NCBI RefSeq assembly: GCF_002088945.1
Contig: NZ_NCSU01000015.1
Coordinates: forward strand, 186,001-250,000
Direction: 5' to 3'
DNA from: Henriciella pelagia
Lineage (GTDB): Bacteria > Pseudomonadota > Alphaproteobacteria > Caulobacterales > Hyphomonadaceae
Length of the DNA stretch: 64,000 nt
Part shown: positions 40,503 to 48,119 of the stretch, piece by piece
Layout: every line of letters starts with the position of its first letter
How positions within the stretch are numbered: the first letter of the stretch is position 1
The notes under the pieces: generated by a model
The model's database searches: none
What the model was told of the DNA's origin: nothing
Seen by the model: the letters and a program-made list of their open reading frames with translations, nothing else
Made by a program: the position numbers and the translations under genes

Positions 40503-43502
<3,000 letters not shown>

Positions 43503-43506
<4 letters not shown>

Positions 43507-44204
43507 TCAGCGGCTCTCTCATATTCTTCTTCAGGCTCGCCCGGCCGCTCGAAATCGAGCTGCGGACGGCGCGCCTTGAGGCGGTTCTTGATCGACGAGG
43601 CGCTGCGGATGGCATCCTCGCGGTGCGCCTTGCGCTGTCTGTCATAACGCCCAAGGATCATGTCGCGCCTGCGCGGATCTGTATGTGCTTGCAGCTCGGA
43701 CACGACCAGCCGGCGGCAATCGTCAACAAAGTTGGCAGAGTTCTCACCGGTTGGCCCACCATCGCGCGTGAGGGCTTCAAGCTCGTAATAGGCAAAGACG
43801 AGCGCATCGAGAATCGGCGGCCGGTGTCCTCTATACGCCCCTTCCTTCTCTGCGCCTTTCCCGTCCGGATCGACATTTGGAAAGAACATGCGGCCTCTCT
43901 CGATCATGGAGGAGAGGTTCATCAGCAGGTTCACCTTGTTATTGTTAAAGGCCTGGTCATTGGCCTGCGCCCGGCGCGTGCGCGCGAACATTGAAATCCG
44001 GCCCAGGATATCGATGACCTGAGCGCCCCATTCGAGGCTTGCACTATCGACGTGCATGCGAAGGGTCTCGACGCGGATCTTCTCCTGCCGCCGGGTTTCA
44101 AGATGCGAGGCAATCGCGCCGATCACCGCAAAGATTGCCGAACCCACGGTGACAATAAGCGTCCAGTTGTTCGAGGCAGAATCCATAATGCTGCTGAGGT
44201 CCAT
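43503..44204 (-). CDS. Unknown single-pass membrane protein within the ilv operon
   Basis: A 233-aa protein with one N-terminal transmembrane helix (about 14-34, NWTLIVTVGSAIFAVIGAIA) and a charged, mostly helical cytoplasmic part. It has Arg-rich stretches and an acidic end, and I recognise no domain. It begins 28 nt after ilvB and overlaps ilvN by ATGA, so it is co-transcribed and translationally coupled to the regulatory subunit. The start is the ATG at 44204; a GTG directly precedes it. A link to branched-chain synthesis is suggested only by position. Confidence 0.7.
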
Positions 44205-44232
44205 CACACTATTCCCGGATGTAAGCTGATAA

Positions 44233-46011
44233 TCAGACTAGCTTACGACCTTCCGCATCAATTTCATCCCCGGAAATGCTGCCGACGATCATCTCATTGT
44301 GCGCTGCACCTGACGGGATCATTGGCAAGCAGTTCTCGGCCTTTGTCACCAGACAGTCGAAGACGACCGGCCCCGGATGCCCAATCATTTCCATGATCTT
44401 CTGATCAAGTTCAGCCGGGTCGGAGCACTGGATGCCATGCGCCCCGTACGCTTCGGCCAGTTTCACGAAGTCGGGAAGGCTTTCCGAATAGGAATGGGAA
44501 TAGCGCTCGCCGTGCAGCAATTCCTGCCATTGGCGCACCATGCCCATCCACTCATTGTTGAGGATGAAGATCTTGATCGGTAGCTTGTGCTGCACGGCGG
44601 TGGAGACCTCCTGCATCACCATCTGGACCGAGGCTTCACCGGCAATATCGATGACGAGGCTCTCTGGATGCGCAGCCTGGATGCCGACAGCAGCCGGCAG
44701 GCCGTACCCCATCGTGCCGAGCCCGCCTGATGTCATCCAGCGGTTCGGCTCCTCGAAATGGTAATGCTGGGCCGCCCACATCTGGTGCTGGCCAACTTCA
44801 GTCGAGATATAGGTGTCGCGATCCTTGGTTAGCTCATAGAGCCGTTCCACCGCATATTGCGGACGGATCGAGCCATCATTGGCGGGATACGAAAAACAGT
44901 CGCGCTCACGCCACTTGTCGATCTGGCCGCGCCAGTCTTCAAGGTCAGGTTTTGCGCCCTTGATTTTCTTCCAGCCCGCGAGCAGCGCCTTCAGGGCCTC
45001 CTTGCAGTCGGCAACAATCGGCACGTCAACGCGGATGATCTTGTTGATCGAGGACGGGTCGATATCGATATGGATCTTCTTCGAGCCGGGCGAGAAGGCC
45101 GATACCTTCCCCGTCACCCGGTCGTCGAAACGCGCCCCGACGCAGATCATCAGGTCACAATCATGCATGGCATTATTGGCCTCATAGGAGCCGTGCATGC
45201 CGACCATGCCGAGCCAGTCCTTGTGGCTGGCCGGGAAGGCGCCGAGCCCCATCAGCGTCGAAGTCACTGGAAAACCTGTGGCCGCCTGAAGCTCGCGCAG
45301 CAGCGCCGATGCCTCCGGGCCTGAATTGATGACGCCGCCGCCAGTATAGAATACGGGTCGGCGCGCGGCTTTCATCAGCGCCAGCGCATCCTTGATGGCA
45401 TGCGCGCTTGGCTCCGTCTTCGGCTGATAGGTCGGCTTGTGAACGCCTTCCTTGCCGATATAGCTGCCCGTCGCGAACTGAATGTCCTTCGGAATGTCGA
45501 TGACAACAGGTCCCGGCCGCCCGGACGTCGCAATCAGGAAAGCCTCATGGATGGTGCGCGCCAGATCATCAACATCCGTGACAAGGTAATTGTGCTTGGC
45601 GCAGCAGCGCGTGATGCCGACCGTGTCGCACTCCTGGAACGCATCGGTCCCGATGAGATGGGTCGGCACCTGGCCCGTGATCACGACCATCGGGATGGAA
45701 TCCATCATCGCGTCCGTAATCGGCGTGACCATGTTCGTTGCGCCCGGCCCGGAGGTCACCAGCGCAACCCCCGGCTTGCCGGTTGAGCGGGCATAGCCCT
45801 CAGCGGCATGACCTGCACCCTGCTCATGGCGAACGAGGATGTGCCGGATCGAGTTTTCCGAGTAAAGCGCGTCATAGATGGGCAGGACAGCGCCGCCCGG
45901 ATAGCCGAACATCGTATCGACACCCTGCTCCTTGAGCGCCTCGATGACGATCTGTGCGCCGGTCATTGTGCGGGCTTTCGTCTCTGTCTGCTTCAAAGTC
46001 TGGGTAGTCAT
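44233..46011 (-). CDS. ilvB: Acetolactate synthase large (catalytic) subunit
   Basis: ThDP-dependent condensation of two pyruvates, or pyruvate and 2-oxobutyrate. A 592-aa protein with GYPGGAVLPIYD and the catalytic Glu of HEQGAGHAAEGYARSTGKPGV near the start, and the ThDP-magnesium motif DIAGEASVQMVMQE...NNEWMGMVRQWQ. GEAS instead of GDGS is common in alphaproteobacteria. I chose the ATG at 46011; upstream codons belong to the attenuator. Expression is expected to respond to branched-chain amino acids through the leader. Confidence 0.96.
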   Translation of the reverse strand: MTTQTLKQTETKARTMTGAQIVIEALKEQGVDTMFGYPGGAVLPIYDALYSENSIRHILVRHEQGAGHAAEGYARSTGKPGVALVTSGPGATNMVTPITDAMMDSIPMVVITGQVPTHLIGTDAFQECDTVGITRCCAKHNYLVTDVDDLARTIHEAFLIATSGRPGPVVIDIPKDIQFATGSYIGKEGVHKPTYQPKTEPSAHAIKDALALMKAARRPVFYTGGGVINSGPEASALLRELQAATGFPVTSTLMGLGAFPASHKDWLGMVGMHGSYEANNAMHDCDLMICVGARFDDRVTGKVSAFSPGSKKIHIDIDPSSINKIIRVDVPIVADCKEALKALLAGWKKIKGAKPDLEDWRGQIDKWRERDCFSYPANDGSIRPQYAVERLYELTKDRDTYISTEVGQHQMWAAQHYHFEEPNRWMTSGGLGTMGYGLPAAVGIQAAHPESLVIDIAGEASVQMVMQEVSTAVQHKLPIKIFILNNEWMGMVRQWQELLHGERYSHSYSESLPDFVKLAEAYGAHGIQCSDPAELDQKIMEMIGHPGPVVFDCLVTKAENCLPMIPSGAAHNEMIVGSISGDEIDAEGRKLV

Positions 46012-46056: not shown

Positions 46057-46085
46057 AAAGAAAAAGGGCCTCGTTTGAGACCCTT
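46057..46085 (-). terminator. ilv attenuator terminator
   Basis: On the transcript aagggtctc pairs with gaggccctt (46077-46085 with 46064-46072; one G-U pair) around an aaac loop, followed by a U-rich run (plus-strand aaagaaaaa, 46057-46065). It lies between the leader peptide and ilvB, 45 nt before the ilvB ATG, as an attenuator does. Confidence 0.85.
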
Positions 46086-46092
46086 CCATACG

Positions 46093-46129
46093 CACCCGCG
46101 CCGACATCTTTTGACGTCAGTCACGGGTG
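46093..46129 (-). promoter_or_regulatory. ilv leader hairpin overlapping the leader peptide stop
   Basis: Outer arms cacccg (46093-46098) / cgggtg (46124-46129) and inner arms gacatc (46103-46108) / gacgtc (46113-46118, one wobble) with a tttt loop. It covers the last codons and the stop of the leader peptide, where a pause or protector hairpin is expected. An alternative antiterminator pairing with the terminator arm is not obvious by eye. Confidence 0.6.
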
Positions 46130-46162
46130 GCTAATAAGTACGACGACCTTCTGCTTGCGCAA
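46121..46162 (-). CDS. ilv leader peptide
   Basis: A 13-codon ORF reading MRKQKVVVLISHP, with TTG as start and TGA as stop. A consensus ggagg SD lies 8 nt upstream (46171-46175). The Val-Val-Val-Leu-Ile run holds all three branched-chain amino acids in five consecutive codons, right before the leader hairpin and terminator. This is the layout of ilv attenuation: scarce charged tRNA stalls the ribosome and lets ilvB be transcribed. Too short for routine gene finding. Confidence 0.82.
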   Translation of the reverse strand: MRKQKVVVLISHP

Positions 46163-46206
46163 GGCTGTTTCCTCCAAAACGAGTTGGGGGCATAACCTGC
46201 CTCCGC

Positions 46207-47136
46207 CTAGCGGTCAACCTCCTTGTAAAGGGCAGAAACAACCCTCATCCGCGTTTTGAGGTCAGCGCCCGGAATTCTCGGCCAAAATGGAAACTGGCGC
46301 CCGATCCAGGTAAACTGTCTTTTCGCATAGCGGCGCGTGTCGCGCTTGGCGTTTTCAGCGGCCATGGTCGAATTGATCTCGCCGCGAATGAAGGCGGACA
46401 GCCACGGCATGCCATGCGCTTTCATCGCCGGCAGGTCGGGATCGACATTCAGGCGCACCAGCTCCCTGGCCTCTTCCATCGCACCTTCCATCAGCATGCC
46501 TTCGAACCGCTTGTCGATCCGCGCATAGAGCTTCGCCCGCGGCGGCGTCAGCGCGACGCCGAGCCATTCATCAGGGTTCAGCACCGGATTTGACCGATTG
46601 CTCTGGAAACTGGTCAGGGATTTTCCCGTTGCCAGCCACACTTCATAAGCCCGCATAAGGCGCTGACGGTCATTGTCCTCAATGCGACGCGCGGCATCCG
46701 GATCGACAACCTGCAGGCGCACCTTCAGTCCGCGCACACCATCAGCCTTCAGGATGTCCATGACCTCATGGCGAACATCCTCAGGCACCGGCGGAATCTC
46801 CGACAGGCCTTCTGTCAGCGCCAGGAGATAAAGCCCGGTTCCACCGACGACGACAGCCGTCTTGCCCCGCTTCTGGATATCCTCGATCACCGGGCGGACC
46901 TGTTCGAGCCACTGGCCCGTCGAAAAGCGCTCGCTCGCCGGCACATGACCGAACAGGTGGTGCGGCACATCGGCCATCTCTTCTTCATCGGGACGGGCTG
47001 AAATCACCTTCAGTTCCCTGTAGACCTGCATTGAGTCGGCATTGACGATTTCGCCATTGAGCTTACGCGCAATCTCGATGGAGAGTTCTGTCTTGCCGCT
47101 TGCAGTCGGGCCGTGGATCAGGATTGCAGGTCTCAT
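46207..47136 (-). CDS. miaA: tRNA dimethylallyltransferase
   Basis: Adds a dimethylallyl group to A37 of tRNAs reading UNN codons. A 309-aa protein with the P-loop HGPTASGKTEL (7-17), NADSMQVYRELKV and the DVPHHLFGH block. I chose the ATG at 47136; the frame extends upstream across the serB promoter region without sense. It reads toward the ilv leader and is divergent from serB (53 nt). Confidence 0.95.
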   Translation of the reverse strand: MRPAILIHGPTASGKTELSIEIARKLNGEIVNADSMQVYRELKVISARPDEEEMADVPHHLFGHVPASERFSTGQWLEQVRPVIEDIQKRGKTAVVVGGTGLYLLALTEGLSEIPPVPEDVRHEVMDILKADGVRGLKVRLQVVDPDAARRIEDNDRQRLMRAYEVWLATGKSLTSFQSNRSNPVLNPDEWLGVALTPPRAKLYARIDKRFEGMLMEGAMEEARELVRLNVDPDLPAMKAHGMPWLSAFIRGEINSTMAAENAKRDTRRYAKRQFTWIGRQFPFWPRIPGADLKTRMRVVSALYKEVDR

Positions 47137-47189
47137 CACGGAAAGCGTAGAGAGTTTAGCAAGCGACGTTAAGTCAGGAGATGGCGTAA

Positions 47190-48119
47190 ATGGATGAAAA
47201 AACTTCAGATTATAGCCACGTCGCGACGATTGTGGCGGCGAGCGATGCAAGCCGCCAGACCCTTGCAGACCGCCTCGATACGGTCCTGCGCGCCAGCGGC
47301 ACCGTCCATGTTGCCCCCGTCCGCCTGCTGAGCGGCGACAACAAGTTCATCGCGCTAGAGCAGGCTGTGAATTCCGGCGACGCGGCAACATTGCGCCGGT
47401 CCCTCGAAGATGAGTTCGAAGGCATTGCTGACGTGTGCGTCACGCCGACCCGCAACCGGCGCAAATCCCTCCTGATTTCGGACATGGACTCCACCATCAT
47501 CCAGCAGGAATGCCTCGACGAACTCGCTGATTTCGCAGGCCTCAAGGCGGAAATCTCCGCCATCACGGAGCGCGCCATGGCCGGTGAGCTCAATTTCGAG
47601 GAGGCTCTTCGCGAACGTGTCGCCATGCTGAAAGGCCTCGACATTACCGCCCTCGAAAAATGCCATGCCGAACGCATTACCTTGATGCCGGGGGCCCGCA
47701 CGCTGGTCGAGACCATGAAGGCCGATGGTGCCCATTGCGTGCTGGTATCAGGCGGCTTCACCTTCTTCACCTCCCGCATCGCCAGGGCTGCCGGCTTCCA
47801 CTCCGATCAGGGAAATACCCTCCTCGATGATGGACAAACCCTGACCGGGAAAGTGGGCGAGCCCATTCTCGGGCGCGAGGCAAAGCTGGCGGCGCTCCAG
47901 ACCGAAGCGGCAAGACTGAACCTCAAACCATCGGACACGCTGGCCATGGGTGACGGGGCCAATGACCTTGCCATGATCGAAGCGGCCGGTCTCGGCATCG
48001 CCTACCGTGCCAAGCCTGTCGTGGCGGCCGCCGCCGATTGCGGCATCTCTGTCACGGATCTGACGGCCGCGCTCTATTTTCAGGGCTATTCCGACAGCGA
48101 AATCGTCTGGGAAAACTAG
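47190..48119 (+). CDS. serB: Phosphoserine phosphatase
   Basis: Last step of serine synthesis. A 309-aa HAD enzyme with an N-terminal ACT-like regulatory part (1-90) and motif I SDMDSTII (nucleophile Asp98 and Asp100), motif II SGGFTFF and motif IV MGDGANDLAMI. The ATG at 47190 has aggag 9 nt upstream. It converges with pheA; the stops overlap. Confidence 0.95.
   Translation: MDEKTSDYSHVATIVAASDASRQTLADRLDTVLRASGTVHVAPVRLLSGDNKFIALEQAVNSGDAATLRRSLEDEFEGIADVCVTPTRNRRKSLLISDMDSTIIQQECLDELADFAGLKAEISAITERAMAGELNFEEALRERVAMLKGLDITALEKCHAERITLMPGARTLVETMKADGAHCVLVSGGFTFFTSRIARAAGFHSDQGNTLLDDGQTLTGKVGEPILGREAKLAALQTEAARLNLKPSDTLAMGDGANDLAMIEAAGLGIAYRAKPVVAAAADCGISVTDLTAALYFQGYSDSEIVWEN

Follow-up and report, generated by a model that had tools for sequence, protein, structure and literature searches.

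The region that precedes ilvB on the minus strand of the Henriciella pelagia window (the whole stretch of 64,000 nucleotides that was analysed) is most probably an attenuator that makes transcription of the ilvB operon depend on translation of a leader peptide, in response to charged branched-chain tRNAs. On the strength of the comparisons described below, we give this reading a probability of about 0.88. A preliminary description of this DNA had already proposed an ilv attenuator before ilvB, and the conservation and covariation of its leader peptide, of a hairpin over the leader stop codon (P) and of an intrinsic terminator (T) support that proposal. The comparative analysis establishes, at the level of sequence, a leader open reading frame (ORF) with a biased choice of codons, together with P and T, both of which are conserved and covary. 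Stalling of the ribosome, readthrough of the terminator and the direction of the response would follow by analogy with the homologous ilvBN leader of Caulobacter. Judged by its sequence, the Henriciella element belongs with the alphaproteobacterial ilvB leaders already described; we do not file it as a canonical trp-type attenuator because an antiterminator was tested for and not found.

Leader peptide and control codons

The leader ORF (46121-46162, minus strand) is located 110 bp before ilvB and contains 13 codons, which by direct reading specify Met-Arg-Lys-Gln-Lys-Val-Val-Val-Leu-Ile-Ser-His-Pro (MRKQKVVVLISHP). It begins with TTG at 46162-46160 and finishes with TGA at 46123-46121. A Shine-Dalgarno sequence, GGAGG (46171-46175, minus strand), is placed 8 nt before the TTG, and GAGGAAAC at this site is nearly invariant in the alignment of the homologues. 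The control codons GTC GTC GTA CTT ATT (V V V L I; 46133-46147, minus strand) correspond to a run of branched-chain amino acid (BCAA) codons at the matching place in the homologues, and such a run occupies the equivalent site in nearly all Hyphomonadaceae ilvB leaders. Direct reading and homologue alignment thus bear out the short TTG ORF with its Shine-Dalgarno sequence and VVVLI run that had been described.

It had also been claimed that five adjacent BCAA codons in so small an ORF are improbable by chance, and the counts agree with this. When both strands of the window were searched for ORFs of 8-40 codons with a Shine-Dalgarno sequence and at least five consecutive V/L/I codons, the leader was the only one. 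In 40 order-2 Markov windows, simulated from the 64 kb window alone, ORFs with a Shine-Dalgarno sequence and a V/L/I run appeared at 0.225 per window, and none of them was followed by a terminator. As regards codon choice, GTA accounts for 59% of the Val codons in Hyphomonadaceae leaders compared with 5.5% in the genes of the window, which served as the sole codon-usage reference; ATT is likewise favoured over ATC in these leaders, and CTC or CTT over CTG. This bias is what one would expect if the codons had been chosen to sense charged tRNA.

An NTG codon occupies one aligned start position in all 56 homologues compared (21 GTG, 21 TTG and 14 ATG). Since the position is common to all of them, comparison indicates that the TTG is the real start. 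The preliminary description had regarded this start as unusual, a view that we could not maintain: as far as the alignment can tell, TTG is odd only against ordinary genes and is ordinary among the ilvB leader homologues.

Operon and putative promoter

Three genes of branched-chain amino acid synthesis follow the leader on the minus strand. They are ilvB, for the large subunit of acetolactate synthase (44233-46011; NCBIfam NF006581 and TIGR00118, both over cut-off), ilvN/ilvH, for its small subunit (42955-43506; TIGR00119, over cut-off), and ilvC, for ketol-acid reductoisomerase (41882-42898; TIGR00465, over cut-off). The operon is unusual in being interrupted, after ilvB and before ilvN, by an ORF of 234 aa (43503-44207, minus strand); this ORF had no NCBIfam match and a single Pfam match below cut-off (E 0.1). 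On the other side, the tRNA modification gene miaA (46207-47250, minus strand) ends directly before the attenuator.

The probable promoter of the leader combines a -35 element TTGACC (46212-46217, minus strand), inside the 3' end of miaA, and a -10 element TATGCC (46189-46194, minus strand), beyond the miaA stop in this genome, with a spacer of 17 nt (TTGACC-17-TATGCC, 46217-46189). The pair came from the alignment of 23 homologous upstream regions, in which TTGAC is conserved and TTAT is invariant; a strict sigma-70 scan called no promoter. It should be noted that the conservation of the -35 element is ambiguous as promoter evidence, because the same bases also encode the MiaA C-terminus. In relatives, the stretch before the leader repeatedly contains sequences that resemble this C-terminus. 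The start of transcription would lie some 20 nt ahead of the leader ORF.

Hairpin P, terminator T and their conservation

Hairpin P (46093-46129, minus strand) covers the leader stop codon and resembles a pause or protector hairpin. Folding, covariation and geometry agree on it, and its 5' arm starts after the control codons. Terminator T (46057-46086, minus strand) has a stem of 46086-46077 with 46072-46063 and a U-tract at 46065-46057, and it was recovered by folding, conservation and covariation. The leader region folds better than 200 of 200 shuffled sequences (z -4.9). The hairpin over the stop codon (46093-46129) and the U-run terminator, followed by ilvB, had been noted before, and sequence and folding confirm all three. 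A further helix, P0, is tentative: its 5' strand would be TGCGC in the start region (46157-46161, minus strand), which could pair with GCGTA at 46093-46089. We did not retain it, as the compensation seen (GTG/CAC and ATG/CAT) is suggestive and partial, the segments are GC-repetitive and shifted in register, and the helix is absent in one clade.

IlvB was present in 100 of 105 Hyphomonadaceae genomes, and 80 more named ilvB loci were taken from other genomes, mostly of Alphaproteobacteria. Most of the ilvB upstream regions contain a short ORF with a V/L/I run that ends about 100-175 nt before ilvB. In one Henriciella clade it starts with TTG and encodes MRxQxVVVLISxP; in another it starts with ATG and encodes MRPTVVLVIRHLR. 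The Hyphomonas product is MRTSLVLVIRHP, from GTG, and that of Rhizobiales is ..ILVVGRRMGKAV, from ATG. By a simple rule, 135 of 157 leaders also have a terminator, usually 25-46 nt past the leader stop. The layout of leader peptide, P and T is kept at nearly all ilvB loci of the Hyphomonadaceae, among them those of Henriciella and Hyphomonas, and it is widespread in further Alphaproteobacteria, Caulobacter included. Some homologous ilvB loci had no leader peptide or no terminator by these simple criteria. In Parvibaculum, the ilvB upstream regions (L048, L073 and L094) had no BCAA leader ORF by the criteria used, and regulation may differ there.

A covariance model was built from 30 Hyphomonadaceae leaders, with no Caulobacter sequence among them. 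It finds a single copy in the genome from which the window comes (E 4e-23), has a match in 84 of the 235 good genomes that represent the order, and recovers the ilvB leader of Caulobacter sp. Root655 (locus L047, E 4e-8). In the alignment fitted to this model, which therefore leans towards it, 11 of the 17 base pairs of P and T have changes on both sides and 95.6% of the cells are paired; double changes are already present at 8 of the 17 pairs in an unfitted MAFFT alignment. None of 500 shuffles reached the observed covariation. Four of five measures exceed every shuffle, and the number of pair types does not. When the structures were slid along the alignment, the paired cells fell to about half. 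Close relatives therefore keep both the BCAA codons and the terminator, with compensatory changes in P and T, as the preliminary description requires.

A base-paired antiterminator was not found

The preliminary description had spoken of a complete attenuator. The leader peptide, the hairpin and the terminator stand, but the word is too strong if the definition includes a base-paired antiterminator. To model stalling, the RNA downstream of a ribosome placed on each control codon was folded, and T was compared with the best structure lacking T, the difference being called the gap. For the Henriciella leader the gap was 14.7 kcal/mol with the ribosome stalled, 13.3 with the ribosome released and 14.0 with the ribosome at the stop codon, so that the modelled stall does not destabilise T. 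Among 82 Hyphomonadaceae ilv leaders, the shift caused by stalling had a median of 1.75 kcal/mol and a maximum of 5.7. The same computation gave shifts of 6.6-13.8 kcal/mol in ten rhizobial trp attenuators and of 0.2-3.2 kcal/mol for the ilv leaders that these ten genomes carry (Mann-Whitney p 9e-5). In the E. coli controls thrL, ilvL, hisL and trpL, the gap was 6.5-11 kcal/mol smaller with a stalled ribosome than after release; ivbL shifted little by this measure and by 16 kcal/mol relative to a ribosome at the stop codon. It should be mentioned that these are thermodynamic single-strand models without kinetics, from which a short or transient antiterminator could escape.

Direct searches for pairing agreed with the folding. 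An upstream partner of the terminator 5' arm, of at least 5 bp with at least 3 GC, was found at no site in more than 8 of 56 sequences, compared with 56 of 56 for P and for T. A duplex search against the 5' and 3' arms of the terminator (T5 and T4) gave no excess over shuffles, the complementarity being in fact weaker (mean z +0.65 and +0.89). In some sequences the 3' arm of P can pair with T4 (2:4), a pairing that is lost where P changes from CGGGTG to CGGATG, and pairings of the Shine-Dalgarno region with T are scattered, without conservation. The rhizobial trpE leaders (..WWWAR; L190-L199, ten genomes) show a clear stall-dependent shift by the same computation, and in most of them a GGCGGC-like segment close to the stop codon of the leader is able to pair with the terminator.

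In these models, then, the Henriciella leader has no base-paired antiterminator, and none is consistent among its ilvB leader relatives. The lack of an obvious antiterminator had been noticed before and called unusual. The folding and pairing tests confirm the absence, yet it is common to the Hyphomonadaceae ilvB leaders. The element does have two parts of a canonical trp-type attenuator, namely a leader ORF that combines a Shine-Dalgarno sequence with consecutive regulatory codons, and an intrinsic terminator before the first structural gene; the mutually exclusive antiterminator, recovered in the positive controls, was not found.

From ribosome position to terminator

In the ilv leaders, the median distance to the start of P is 14-17 nt from the first BCAA codon and 4-6 nt from the last, and P and T are separated by a median of about 5 nt. 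A ribosome on the first control codon would reach just the base of P, one on the last control codon would invade it, and one at the leader stop codon would melt it. From its start past the control codons and its end close to T, P would be the element whose state follows the position of the ribosome. Since no base-paired antiterminator was found, the link between the stall and T must be weak, transient or non-canonical. We tentatively suggest, at odds clearly below even, that the alphaproteobacterial ilvB leaders form a class of attenuators without a base-paired antiterminator, in which the position of the ribosome would reach T via P, either by crowding or by an action of P on RNA polymerase.

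The canonical trp-type arrangement, in which the P 3' arm (strand 2) or another segment pairs with the T 5' arm (strand 3) upon stalling through short or kinetically favoured pairings, appears doubtful. The overall layout and the length resemble those of trp leaders, and short complementary segments do exist, such as the 4 bp ACCC/GGGT in the Henriciella leader. The pairing searches and the small stall shifts described above argue against it, and so does the geometry: the first hairpin of trp leaders contains or abuts the Trp codons, unlike P.

A second possibility is crowding: while stalled on the control codons, the ribosome would be parked against the folded P, some 20 nt or less from T, and would impede the folding of T. 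After moving on to the stop codon, it would melt P, sit farther from T and then leave. The position of P and the short spacers between P and T suit this explanation. In E. coli, moreover, ribosomes close to an intrinsic terminator repress termination, an effect that disappears at distances above about 27 nt (PMC4824070); in the Henriciella leader, the linear distance from the stop codon to T is 34 nt. The unpaired distance between ribosome and T, however, differs little between the two states in Hyphomonadaceae (medians of 20.6 nt for the stalled ribosome and 25 nt for one at the stop codon) and hardly at all in other Alphaproteobacteria (21.5 and 23 nt), and the values of the trp controls are similar. 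We consider this explanation unlikely.

Alternatively, P may act on RNA polymerase itself, as a hairpin that causes pausing or, in cis, antitermination, and the ribosome would then have its effect only by allowing or preventing the formation of P at the exit channel. P is long, stable (median about -30 kcal/mol) and covarying, and it ends close to T; in trp leaders, the 1:2 hairpin causes pausing. This explanation seems improbable. A constitutive leader terminator without amino-acid regulation, the short ORF being a chance occurrence or a relic, is very improbable, given that an ORF with rare BCAA codons and a Shine-Dalgarno sequence is conserved across Hyphomonadaceae and beyond, that no simulated ORF came with a terminator, and that regulation has been reported in Caulobacter.

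Under the favoured reading as an attenuator, the ribosome would initiate at the TTG and read VVVLI, a run for which Hyphomonadaceae leaders often use rare codons such as GTA. With sufficient Val, Leu and Ile, the ribosome would complete the leader and depart, and T would end transcription before ilvB. If Val, Leu or Ile were scarce, the ribosome would stall on the control codons and more polymerases would pass T. For annotation, this provides the probable regulatory logic of branched-chain amino acid synthesis in Henriciella. If the absence of an antiterminator holds experimentally, these leaders would represent a widespread variant of attenuation that reads the position of the ribosome without an alternative RNA fold.

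Comparison with known systems

The Henriciella element shares a leader ORF of regulatory codons and an intrinsic terminator before the operon with the trp, thr, his, ilvGMEDA and ilvBN attenuators of E. coli and with the rhizobial trp attenuators. These E. coli attenuators and the rhizobial trp attenuators have a stall-dependent antiterminator by the same computation, while the alphaproteobacterial ilv leaders do not. The E. coli pyrBI attenuator responds to UTP by coupling and not to amino acids by stalling. PMC4824070 discusses it as an example of a leader terminator that is repressed by a nearby ribosome. The ilvB-II motif of Corynebacterium (PMC10272879) is also similar, with a BCAA upstream ORF (AUG, GUG or UUG), a hairpin P1 and a terminator P2 before ilvB. 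It comes from another phylum, and a putative antiterminator pairing is drawn for ilvB-II.

The preliminary description had compared the element with the branched-chain leaders of enterobacteria. Attenuation as such stands, and the alphaproteobacterial ilvB leaders, as far as the cited accounts describe them, offer a fitter comparison. An ilvBN leader of Caulobacter with tandem Ile and Val codons (the ivlL leader) is described as an attenuator in the passage of PMC4117421 that cites Tarleton, Malakooti and Ely 1994. The Henriciella element resembles this Caulobacter crescentus attenuator, as described there, in taxonomic order, in gene and in having a BCAA leader peptide followed by a terminator; it differs in the sequence of the leader peptide and in its TTG start. 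The leader ORF of Caulobacter sp. Root655 is MRNTMIVLMERPFTA, from GTG. The alphaproteobacterial ilvB leader peptide is given as previously described where PMC1273637 cites Vitreschak et al. 2004, and the Henriciella element is like the ilvB/ilvIH leader attenuators mentioned there in its leader peptide and its position before ilvB.

Finally, the Rfam family RF02502 (Atu_C8), a Rhizobiales "sRNA", covers the ilvB leader peptide, P and T at three Rhizobiales loci (L068:2816-2938, L072:2825-2944 and L059:2831-2952; 100.9-123 bits). The Henriciella window gives a full-length match to this family, at 20 bits, which falls short of the gathering score (50). The Atu_C8 "sRNA" is probably the terminated transcript of an attenuator, and this Rhizobiales sRNA of Rfam coincides with the ilvB attenuator leader.
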